In this document: positions 55,490-58,459 of the stretch, in pieces
Position numbering within the stretch: position 1 is the stretch's first letter
Layout of the letters: each line of letters starts with the position of its first letter
Source: Mucilaginibacter paludis DSM 18603
GTDB taxonomy: Bacteria > Bacteroidota > Bacteroidia > Sphingobacteriales > Sphingobacteriaceae
DNA: 64,000 nucleotides
Assembly: GCF_000166195.2 (NCBI RefSeq)
Contig: NZ_CM001403.1
Coordinates: 1,798,001-1,862,000 of the forward strand
Direction: 5' to 3'
The notes under the pieces: generated by a model
What the model was told of the DNA's origin: nothing
What the model saw: the letters and a program-made list of their open reading frames with translations, nothing else
Databases searched by the model: none
Translations under genes and position numbers: made by a program

Positions 55490-57109
55490 CTACTGATGGA
55501 AGTTAATTTTCAGCTTAATCTCTTTACCCGGATTATCTTGATCATTAACCCATTTTGAGCCATTCTTCAGGATATTAATGGCCCGTTGGTTAGCATCATC
55601 TGTTAAACCCTTAATTACCCTAACGTTAGTAATATTGCCACTGGCATCAATAATAAAACCCAGTTTAACTTTGCCCGCTTTAGCTACGGGCGCCACGGTT
55701 TGTGCTTTTAGATATTGCTTGTAGGCATCCCAACCGATGGCCGGCCGGGCATCTTCCGGCAGTACATCCTCCGGTTTACGCTGGGTACCGTAGCCAACAA
55801 CGACAACCTCACTAAGGGCATGCATTGCCGGATCCAACGCAATTTTTAAATCGTCCTTATCTTTAACCTTAACATATTGATTTTCATACCCTATAAAGGC
55901 AATGTTCAATATGTCTTTTGGAGCTGCCGTAATTTTAAAATTGCCATCAACATCGGTTGTGGTACTTACTGATTTGCCTGCTACTGCTATTGTTACTCCG
56001 GGTAAGGGCTGGCCATCGTGTTTATCAACCACCCTTCCTGTAATCACAAGCGGTATTTTTGCTTCCTTTAATCTTTTATTGGAAATATTCACACCCGCTA
56101 CCCGCCCCGCTAATGCCTGGGTAATGGAGGTATCCGGCTTATTAAAATTTACAGGGTTTATAGTAGTAGCGGCACTGGCTGTTATTATAGTCTTCTTTTG
56201 GGATCGATAGCCTATAATATTCACATCGTTTGAGGCCAATAAACCTTTTTTTGTTTCAATTAAAATTACGCCATTGGCAGCCCTTGAACCATACAAAGCT
56301 GTGGCCGAAGCATCTTTCAAAACGTTAATGCTTTTGATATCGTCAGGTTTGATAGAACTCATTTTAAGGCTATCTACCATGATGCCATCAACAACATAGA
56401 GAGGTTCCTTCCCCCGTATTGTTCCTACTCCCCTCACCACCATTTTAGACAAAGGGTCGTCTCCCTTCCTTTTTAACTTAGCTTGTGCATTACCAAAAAC
56501 TAAATTAGGCTGTGCCTTTCCATAATAACCAAACCTTTCAACGTCCTTGTCCTTTTCGGCACCCGTATCTTTATGAATAGCTACTGATAACAATGCAACA
56601 GTATCTGCTTTGATGGATTGATCTGAAATTGTAGCCGACGGAATAGTAGATTTAGCATGCCTTTGGCTTAATTTAGCCAACTGGTTAGCATTGAGTGATG
56701 GCCCGGCGGGTTTAACAACAGGCAAAGGTAGATCTGCCCTTACTTTATCAGGCTGTTTTTTAACGGGTTGATGATTTAAAACGACAGTTTGTCCGGGCCG
56801 TTCACGCATCAGCCACCAGCCGCCGATAGTTAGGGCGATTAGTAACGAGGCAGCAATAGGCAATAACTTCCACAACGGGATGGTCCGCTTTTTATCCTGT
56901 TGTGTCCGCTCTTCAATTAAACGGTTAATAGCGTCCAGGTGTGGCTGATGATCCTCCTTGCTTTCAGCCTCCATTTCCATCCCCCGGATCACATCCATCA
57001 AAAACGGATCATTGTGCGCCTGCCGCTCCAAATCGTACATAGCACGGGCATCAAGCTCCCCGTTGAGGTACTTCCGTATTAGCGCTATGTCGGTTTTTTT
57101 AGTGCTCAC
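55490..57109 (-). CDS. Mosaic anti-sigma-like protein with SusC plug, CarboxypepD and TonB C-terminal segments
   Basis: A 539-residue protein. Residues 1-75 resemble an anti-sigma N-terminus (LIRKYLNGELDARAMYDLER), with one membrane helix at about 79-101. Then comes a SusC plug-like segment (about 236-295; PLYVVDGIMV, INVLKDASATALYGSRAANG), next a carboxypeptidase-regulatory domain (about 350-435; DGQPLPGVTIAVAG) ending in the SusC motif VVVGYGTQRK (436-445), and finally a TonB C-terminal-like domain (about 475-539). In SusC receptors the regulatory domain precedes the plug, so the order is permuted here. It overlaps the sigma factor gene by 11 bases. Confidence 0.82.
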   Translation of the reverse strand: MSTKKTDIALIRKYLNGELDARAMYDLERQAHNDPFLMDVIRGMEMEAESKEDHQPHLDAINRLIEERTQQDKKRTIPLWKLLPIAASLLIALTIGGWWLMRERPGQTVVLNHQPVKKQPDKVRADLPLPVVKPAGPSLNANQLAKLSQRHAKSTIPSATISDQSIKADTVALLSVAIHKDTGAEKDKDVERFGYYGKAQPNLVFGNAQAKLKRKGDDPLSKMVVRGVGTIRGKEPLYVVDGIMVDSLKMSSIKPDDIKSINVLKDASATALYGSRAANGVILIETKKGLLASNDVNIIGYRSQKKTIITASAATTINPVNFNKPDTSITQALAGRVAGVNISNKRLKEAKIPLVITGRVVDKHDGQPLPGVTIAVAGKSVSTTTDVDGNFKITAAPKDILNIAFIGYENQYVKVKDKDDLKIALDPAMHALSEVVVVGYGTQRKPEDVLPEDARPAIGWDAYKQYLKAQTVAPVAKAGKVKLGFIIDASGNITNVRVIKGLTDDANQRAINILKNGSKWVNDQDNPGKEIKLKINFHQ

Positions 57110-57671
57110 CGTTTTTCTCCATGCAAATTTTCAAATTCCTCTTCCCGTTCTGGATATAGCTTTTAACATCGTTTAAACTGTAGCCGGTTATCTCGGTTAT
57201 TTCTTTATAACACTTTTCGTTCAAAAAAAACAGATCGATACTTTGCTTTTGCGCCACAGGCAGTTTTTCCATACAAAGTTCCATAACGGTTAACCGCTTT
57301 TCTTTATTCTCTACATCCTGATGCAAATCTACCGGCAATTCCATAAATTCATCTATAGTGGTATATTCCATCTTCTTGGCCAACCGCAACTGCATCAAAC
57401 AATGGTTGCGGCTCAACACATAAAGCCAGCTGCCAAATTGCTTAATTTCTCGCTTGTTAACCTTAACAATCAATTCTTCAAAAATCTGCATCACGGCATC
57501 TTTGCTCTGTTCAGCATCTTGCAGGTACCGGTAGCAAACATAGTATACCATAGATGAATAGCCCTGAAACAAGTTGCCAAGCACAGCCAGATCGCCGCTT
57601 TTGCGGTAGCGCTTCAGCAGCGTCTCGTCATTAGCCGGATCCGACTTCTTGGAGTTGTTAAACAGGTTCAT
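57099..57671 (-). CDS. ECF-type RNA polymerase sigma factor
   Basis: A 190-residue sigma-70-family protein. Region 2 is seen as GYSSMVYYVCYRYLQDAEQSKDAVMQIFEELI with the usual region 2.2 acid/aromatic pattern, and region 4 as KLPVAQKQSIDLFFLNEKCY then ITGYSLNDVKSYIQNGKRNL. It overlaps the mosaic membrane protein, its likely anti-sigma partner. Such pairs in Bacteroidota usually control SusCD genes, but no SusCD pair is present here. Confidence 0.93.
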   Translation of the reverse strand: MNLFNNSKKSDPANDETLLKRYRKSGDLAVLGNLFQGYSSMVYYVCYRYLQDAEQSKDAVMQIFEELIVKVNKREIKQFGSWLYVLSRNHCLMQLRLAKKMEYTTIDEFMELPVDLHQDVENKEKRLTVMELCMEKLPVAQKQSIDLFFLNEKCYKEITEITGYSLNDVKSYIQNGKRNLKICMEKNGEH

Positions 57672-57940
57672 TTGTCGGCATCAAATTAATTTTTTTTTAT
57701 GGCTTATGGAAATTTTATGAAGATGCCTGGCAAACGCATTAAAAATGTAAGAGGAGGCACCTTACGGAGCCCAAACAAAGTTAAATTGCCAGTGTTTGCA
57801 TAAATTATCGGTGAGGACACCGCCTCCAGCTGAGTAAAACAAATATTAGTGAATAACGAACAAAGCCCTTCCCGCAGCTACTAAGCGGGCCGATGTCGTA
57901 AATTAAGAATACTGATCATAGAACTAAAAACACAAGTACC

Positions 57941-58184
57941 GTCGCTATTCGAAGCCTCCGACTTCGAATGCTTATGTTTGTAGTCTCCGACTACAGGCTA
58001 ATGCCAGTCAATGTTACTACCACCGGAGACAGCCAACATCAATAATCGTTTCCTTTTACACATAAGTTAGATGCACTTGAAGACATTTATTCAACAAAAT
58101 GAATAGTGATACAACAAAGCTTTTTTACTGTAGTCGGAGACTACTGACATAGTCGTTCGGAGTCAGAGACTCCGAACAGCGAGG
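57941..58184. repeat. Paired-hairpin repeat, copy 1 (244 bp)
   Basis: The unit opens with two short palindromes (around CGAAGCCTCCGACTTCG and GTAGTCTCCGACTAC) and closes with two more (GTAGTCGGAGACTAC and GTTCGGAGTC-AGA-GACTCCGAAC). The second and third are exact reverse complements of each other, each with a 3-base loop (TCC or GGA). About 130 bp of non-symmetric sequence lie between. No ORF spans it. This layout recalls REP/BIME-type elements moved by Y1-type (RAYT) transposases; no such transposase is in the window. Confidence 0.8.
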
Positions 58185-58215
58185 AGTACTGGGGGAGATT
58201 ATGCACTGCATCAAC

Positions 58216-58459
58216 GTCGCTATTCGAAGTCTCCGACTTCGAATGCCTATGCTTGTAGTCTCCGACTACAGGCTAATGCCAGTCAATGTTACTACCACCG
58301 TAGACAGCCAACATCAATAATCGTTTCCTTTTATACATAAGTTAGATGCACTTGAAGACACTTATTCAACAAAATGAATAGTGATACAACAAAGCTTTTT
58401 TACTGTAGTCGGAGACTACTGACATAGTCGTTCGGAGTCAGAGACTCCGAACAGCGAGG
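58216..58459. repeat. Paired-hairpin repeat, copy 2 (244 bp)
   Basis: A second copy in the same orientation with the same length and only a handful of substitutions, separated from copy 1 by 31 unrelated bases. In this copy the first palindrome is perfect (ATTCGAAGTC-TCC-GACTTCGAAT), whereas copy 1 has one stem mismatch. Change that spares hairpin stems and length suggests selection or recent duplication. Confidence 0.8.

Follow-up and report, generated by a model that had tools for sequence, protein, structure and literature searches.

The window analysed here is a 64,000-nt stretch of the genome of Mucilaginibacter paludis DSM 18603 (contig NZ_CM001403.1, positions 1,798,001 to 1,862,000). 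On its minus strand an ECF sigma factor gene is followed by a gene for a 539-aa membrane protein, the end of the first overlapping the start of the second by 11 nt (Table 1), and both open reading frames lie where a first-pass annotation had put them. The sigma factor is a short protein with regions 2 and 4 (Sigma70_r2 31.6 bits, r4_2 30.1 bits, both above the Pfam cut-off) and matches TIGR02937 in NCBIfam (E 4.1e-19). Against TIGR02985, which we take to be the FecI-like Bacteroidetes sigma type, it scored 60 bits, below the curated cut-off of 126.4. As is typical of transmembrane ECF anti-sigma factors, the membrane-protein gene is coupled to the sigma gene and directly follows it. Upstream of the sigma gene, a long gap holds two 245-nt direct copies (57940-58459), 98% alike and with 55-58-nt inverted arms, which look like a dispersed repeat, judged from this one site.

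Table 1. Genes and protein segments of the sigma/anti-sigma locus, with positions in the window.
Feature	Position	Strand	Basis or remark
ECF sigma factor gene	57099..57671	(-)	190 aa; Sigma70_r2, r4_2 and TIGR02937 matches
Putative anti-sigma / receptor-mosaic gene	55490..57109	(-)	539 aa, GTG start
Residues 1-75, helical N-terminal domain, putative sigma-binding	56885..57109	(-)	Model and family conservation
Residues 82-102, single transmembrane helix	56804..56866	(-)	Model helix 83-102; hydrophobic stretch by eye
Residues 103-214, tether, mostly disordered	56468..56803	(-)	pLDDT mostly <50
Residues 215-291, SusC plug C-half (segment C)	56237..56467	(-)	Pfam Plug, SusC-derived model, beta-alpha-beta prediction
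Residues 293-345, first Ton-box-like motif and plug N-half (segment B)	56075..56233	(-)	SusC-derived model, column conservation
Residues 354-431, SusC NTE / CarbopepD_reg_2 (segment A)	55817..56050	(-)	Pfam and fold match
Residues 432-446, second Ton box LSEVVVVGYGTQRK	55772..55816	(-)	Conserved columns; position after NTE
Residues 456-539, TonB C-terminal domain	55493..55744	(-)	TonB_C match and fold match

Domain order of the 539-aa protein

From its N-terminus the protein consists of a helical domain, a transmembrane helix, a tether, the C-half of a SusC plug, a Ton box with the plug N-half, the SusC NTE (CarbopepD), a second Ton box (EVVVVGYGTQ) and a TonB C-terminal domain. Scores above the curated Pfam cut-offs were obtained for Plug (residues 215-281, profile positions 40-107 of 107, E 1.1e-12), CarbopepD_reg_2 (residues 356-437, E 1.3e-18) and, marginally, TonB_C (residues 477-536, E 2.1e-5, 25.3 bits vs a cut-off of 24.6), and the SusC signature TIGR04057 was found in NCBIfam (E 1.5e-18). 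With phmmer, solved SusC proteins align to both the NTE and the plug part, with the order of the two exchanged. Models of the NTE (A), the Ton box with the plug N-half (B) and the plug C-half (C) were built from eight SusC proteins of the M. paludis genome (8 of 20 fetched stretches). They read the SusC proteins themselves as A-B-C and the 539-aa protein as C (224-289, E 2e-29), B (294-344, E 2e-12; NIIGYRSQKK...QALAGRVAGV) and A (354-429), followed by the second Ton box. No rotation of A-B-C gives C-B-A, so a plain circular permutation is rejected. In SusC Bt1763 the NTE (Pfam 13715) precedes the Ton box DEVVVTG, according to the accessible part of PMC7782687, and the second Ton box stands in the same place after the NTE.

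Pfam, NCBIfam and the structure models thus agree with the first-pass description of one barrel-less polypeptide with a putative anti-sigma domain and plug, NTE and TonB-like parts. The plug had been placed ahead of the NTE; this holds for its C-half (215-281), but segment B lies between the two. Residues 1-75 matched no anti-sigma or other known-family profile in Pfam or NCBIfam at E up to 1; we use the anti-sigma label because of gene position and shape. These residues are strongly conserved across the family and form predicted helices at 8-15, 21-33, 35-48 and 55-71 in the full-length model, and a family profile of the N-terminus found no PDB sequence match. The protein probably holds back its partner sigma factor.

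In the full-length model, built on a 77-row alignment, confidence is high for the NTE and TonB domain, fair for the N-terminal helices and transmembrane helix, and poor for 138-327. As this model is uninformative for the plug region, residues 203-446 were also modelled, aligned with other plug pieces. Here the NTE is very confident, and residues 237-286, most of the plug C-half, are predicted as a beta-alpha-beta unit with strands at 237-240, 258-264 and 281-286 and a helix at 267-277 (block pLDDT 73-90), which speaks against the concern that the plug-like segment might prove unfolded. Residues 203-232 and segment B are weak in this model; segment B is poorly folded in both models. Foldseek matched the NTE to that of SusC 9hfj (target TM 0.92-0.93). 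SusC chain 8a9y (rank 39, E 2.3e-3, 52% identity over 62 columns) and H. pylori TonB-CTD 5lw8 (target TM 0.68, E 3.9e-3) were also matched, presumably via the plug part and the TonB domain, respectively, the Foldseek table giving no range for either.

The second Ton box is well conserved in its leading columns (L432 in 73, E434 in 72 and V435 in 71 of 77 rows), and its GY is kept in about half (44/77 and 40/77). It is unpaired with the TonB domain in the full-length model, with residues 436-445 at pLDDT <50; conservation despite predicted disorder is as expected of a working short motif. The first Ton box is looser (E295 in 54, Y301 in 56 and K306 in 54 of 77 rows).

Family members and their plug pieces

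Relatives were sampled by a search of 201 family-level genomes and by a genome scan. Used as the query of that scan, the single protein gave no match; with the family alignment, 310 of 524 candidate stretches proved to hold relatives, and the 80 best were kept. These 80 are mostly labelled Mucilaginibacter, with others from Pedobacter, Olivibacter, Parapedobacter and Chryseolinea, and the family proteins are about 380-540 aa long. A homologue of the M. paludis sigma factor lies directly upstream, with an overlap of 4-14 nt, in 80/80 of the kept loci. After three loci without a full open reading frame were dropped, 94 non-redundant members remained (80 + 28 less 14 duplicates). We found the family described nowhere in the literature searched, whose coverage mostly lay outside subscription journals. 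Phylum-wide, the N-terminal profile matches 35 of 395 genomes at 1e-5, and 30 of these loci were fetched, one being that of the window. Among them L160, L156 and L166 have no detected NTE, yet by eye their TonB domain is preceded by a motif like EVVV, EVIV or VVGYGTQ, and the shorter members L174, L175 and L178 have no TonB domain visible.

Segment C was detected in 8 of the 94 members and is therefore not needed for the family's job. It occurs as C-B-A in the M. paludis protein, L040 (M. galii) and L011, in the native plug order as B-C-A in L041, L042, L043 and L044, and as C-A in L072. The check suggested in the first-pass annotation, for the same domain order beside ECF sigma factors, thus found this kind of protein at all 80 kept loci and C-B-A in two relatives, but C-B-A is no hallmark of the family, given 86 members without detected plug C and four with the native order. 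A piece resembling, by eye, the plug of another receptor type is present in L012, L051, L056 and partly L054; against Pfam Plug, L012 gave E 0.038, under the cut-off. Two further members differ in other ways: L046 has two NTE copies (protein residues 196-419), and the anti-sigma frame of L070 (5001-6504) ends after 340 aa. The tblastn match of L070 continues to the end of the query, so in that metagenome assembly its gene is either broken or misread. A second sigma/anti-sigma pair of the family in the M. paludis genome (L199, 2358-5152) is without plug C and is divergent from a 275-aa TonB-type gene.

A tree was made from the sigma, N-terminal and TonB pieces with A, B and C left out (94 rows, 394 columns), by a quick method with SH-aLRT support only, no bootstrap and one long row. 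Branches starred on this tree part the M. paludis protein from L040 and L011, L044 and L072 are sisters, and the 'other plug type' label of L070 was given solely for its kinship with L051. The tree needs three changes for C-B-A and five for the presence of C, gain and loss not being distinguishable. As the M. paludis protein stands apart from the other two with C-B-A, there seems to be turnover of plug pieces in the family, and a single inherited origin of C-B-A is unsupported by this quick tree. Nor does similarity of the C pieces alone show common descent: between different anti-sigmas they are 41-66% alike, about the level of their best matches to SusC pieces (47-65%, eight SusCs). A decayed copy of B ahead of C (B'-C-B-A) was considered and rejected outside L040, where it is at most a hint from the sequence: the score with the B model was reached too often by shuffles, in 121 of 500 for the M. 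paludis protein, 445 for L011 and 289 for L072, compared with 25 for L040. The joint B-C model extends into B in L072 as well.

Proposed role of the pair and its alternatives

We tentatively propose, at somewhat below an even chance, that the ECF sigma factor is paired with a TonB-like tethered anti-sigma, in which the choice of Ton box by the TonB domain frees the sigma factor. The anatomy and the regulatory role of the pair we consider quite probable; competition between Ton boxes as the mechanism is the tentative part, which we would not expect to win an even bet. Residues 1-75 would hold the sigma factor at the membrane, and the tether would let the TonB domain reach the outer membrane. 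Three kinds of Ton box would compete for the groove of that domain: the protein's own two, acting in cis, one on a partner, and exposed boxes of TonB-dependent receptors, the partner being the divergently encoded VWA/YfbK protein described below. A switch in the box held would be relayed via the tether and would free the sigma factor by shape change or proteolysis. The NTE and plug pieces would mimic a receptor and so set affinity or specificity. In M. paludis the extra plug half would be carried by the anti-sigma itself, because no YfbK partner was found in its genome. The repeated remixing of the relatives suggests that the mosaic protein senses receptor-TonB contacts. In favour of this reading are the sigma homologue at 80/80 kept loci, a second Ton box conserved despite predicted disorder, the NTE and TonB fold matches, the receptor-like parts of the VWA/YfbK proteins and their likeness to their own anti-sigmas, the Bt1763 growth defect cited below, and the low dN relative to dS of plug C in two pairs. 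Against it are the unpaired Ton box in the full-length model, the N-terminus that matches no known anti-sigma family, the marginal TonB_C score, the rarity of plug C, the half-kept GY, the loci with no VWA match and the unevenness of the pairing scores.

The strongest rival, which we regard as somewhat unlikely, is that the plug and Ton-box pieces are tolerated receptor debris, a passive tether left by SusC recombination, and that the N-terminal, NTE and TonB domains alone matter. Donors abound, with at least 150 plug matches in the M. paludis genome (150 of 185 candidates scored), and the rarity and turnover of C, the poor folding of B and the DNA runs common to some neighbouring genes (see below) would all fit. 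Against this, plug C looks to be under constraint in two pairs of related anti-sigmas (dN 0.24 and dS 1.46 in L044/L072; dN 0.34 and dS 2.5 in L041/L043), with dN/dS of about 0.14-0.16 in both, values that are rough as dS is high; for the tether of L044/L072, dN was 0.28 and dS 0.90. Both Ton boxes also have conserved columns. The M. paludis segment C shows no sign of recent copying from one of that genome's SusC genes: its best-scoring DNA match there is 77% over 111 nt (a shorter one is 85% over 53 nt). Although thus not freshly copied, it has retained the plug core.

A second alternative, in our view unlikely, is that the anti-sigma senses a cognate VWA/YfbK protein by Ton-box/TonB-domain or like-with-like contact, with receptors uninvolved. 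Of the 80 kept loci, 50 have a divergent VWA/YfbK-type gene upstream of the sigma gene, 49 of them full-length and one (L071) a 90-aa fragment, and both of the two proteins run in Pfam matched YfbK_C, vWF_A, VWA and CarbopepD_reg_2. The full-length frames carry the NTE at their start in 49/49, the Ton-box/plug-N segment B in 40/49 and C in 3/49. Those with C are confined to L041, L043 and L072, whose anti-sigmas all carry C too, compared with 5/49 for C among the anti-sigmas that face a full-length partner.

The tether-B-C stretch of each anti-sigma was compared with the Ton-box-to-VWA stretch of its partner over 20000 shuffled pairings. Own pairs reached 3524 against a shuffle maximum of 2929 (49 loci), 2560 against a maximum of 2169 (37 dereplicated loci), and 1849 against 1732 in shuffles when C-bearers were excluded (33 loci). 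Weaker results stand beside these: the own partner ranked first in 8/37 (median rank 9) and outscored the nearest relative's partner in just 25/37 (p 0.047); for NTE against NTE the observed sum was reached by 14 of 20000 shuffles. Pair-specific segments are shared in L050, L054 and L058. At the DNA level 6/49 own pairs were above all 392 cross-locus controls, and in L058 an identical 45-nt run, counted by hand, is common to the anti-sigma and VWA genes. This DNA excess and the 45-nt run suggest direct exchange between the two genes in some loci. Against dependence on such a partner, the M. paludis genome has no YfbK_C match, yet keeps two sigma/anti-sigma pairs, and among the 131 matches listed there for a full YfbK-type query none passes residue 294 into the VWA core. 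No VWA match was found near 30 of the 80 loci, a few of which have short flanks.

Other neighbours were also seen. Proteins of about 830-845 aa with a plug-C piece near the C-terminus are encoded upstream of the pairs in L053 (195-2729) and L061 (181-2670). Downstream of the anti-sigma in L046, L047, L049 and others, two opposite-strand genes recur: among the 31 loci that lack a full VWA frame, one is present in 19 and the other in 16. In L046 they encode DUF4197 and a PHO4 phosphate transporter and are followed by a PhoU_div gene. Their recurrence is probably plain gene order. A link to anti-phage defence was rejected, as PADLOC gave no match for the anti-sigma, the sigma factor or one VWA partner.

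That the protein chiefly soaks up TonB or blocks Ton boxes, in line with the TonB jamming raised in the first-pass annotation, and that sigma control is secondary, is very unlikely: it does join a TonB domain and Ton boxes in one chain, but the overlap with the sigma gene at 80/80 kept loci points to regulation, and anti-sigma-type regulators are usually scarce proteins. An assembly or annotation artefact joining separate genes, the refutation foreseen in the first-pass annotation, is improbable in the extreme, because C-B-A in L040 and L011 (other assemblies), B-C-A in L041-L044 and C-A in L072 each occur in one open frame with the same ends.

If the TonB domain does read Ton boxes, Bacteroidota would have a means of sensing receptor/TonB occupancy without a dedicated STN receptor. 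A broader version of the Ton-box reading, which we think doubtful, is a barrel-less cell-surface signalling. Here the TonB-domain anti-sigma would read Ton boxes, and both it and its divergent VWA/YfbK partner would take up copies of receptor pieces (plug halves, perhaps also pieces from the plug of another receptor type) that rewrite its specificity, inter-gene exchange keeping the pair matched. The repeated remodelling, including stretches common to two neighbouring genes, makes specificity testable by swaps. New here is the divergent upstream VWA/YfbK gene with an NTE and often Ton-box/plug-N sequence. The accessible part of PMC7782687 calls the role of the SusC NTE unknown, and reports that removal or mutation of the SusC Bt1763 motif corresponding to the second Ton box led to a growth defect like that of SusD loss. 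The pairing of NTE and Ton box with a TonB domain in a regulator suggests a signalling module in its own right, and the mosaic regulator offers a small handle on the role of the NTE.

Comparison with known systems

The Dma anti-sigmas, as described in the available part of PMC13088901, are likewise from Bacteroidota and have an adjacent ECF sigma factor, an N-terminal sigma-binding domain, a transmembrane helix and a long disordered tether towards the outer membrane, a likeness of shape only. Dma ends in a beta-barrel (PMC13088901, same part), whereas the present family ends in NTE, Ton box and TonB C-terminal domain. By Pfam and the model, the 539-aa protein lacks a Dma-type C-terminal beta-barrel and has TonB_C instead.

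FecR-type anti-sigmas are membrane proteins next to ECF sigma factors, with a periplasmic part linked to TonB-dependent receptors, and the 539-aa protein is also a membrane anti-sigma candidate beside an ECF sigma factor. A FecR-like pair with a neighbouring SusC is not supported: in Pfam the protein matches neither FecR nor DUF4974 at E up to 1, and among the plug matches listed for the genome, with 150 of 185 candidates scored, no other one falls in the 64-kb window.

With the N-terminus of SusC/RagA receptors the protein shares NTE, Ton box and plug modules, by clear homology and by the NTE fold; unlike them it has a changed module order, no barrel and a transmembrane anchor, and its 236 bits against TIGR04056 in NCBIfam are under the 368-bit cut-off. 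It resembles TonB in its single N-terminal transmembrane helix, tether and C-terminal TonB domain, and differs in its N-terminal sigma-coupled domain, inserted receptor modules and weak TonB_C score. The transmembrane helix of ExbB/ExbD-coupled TonB has an SxxxH-type motif; in residues 82-102 no His is visible by eye. Elsewhere in the M. paludis genome, around 4016798 (L181), a plug-C-like stretch (E 1.3e-8) forms the end of an M56 (BlaR1-like) peptidase. This peptidase differs from the mosaic protein in having no NTE or Ton-box match with the A/B/C models and no TonB_C match listed, and shares with it a plug C-half on a non-receptor, signalling-type protein; plug halves are thus also carried by another protein of the signalling type.
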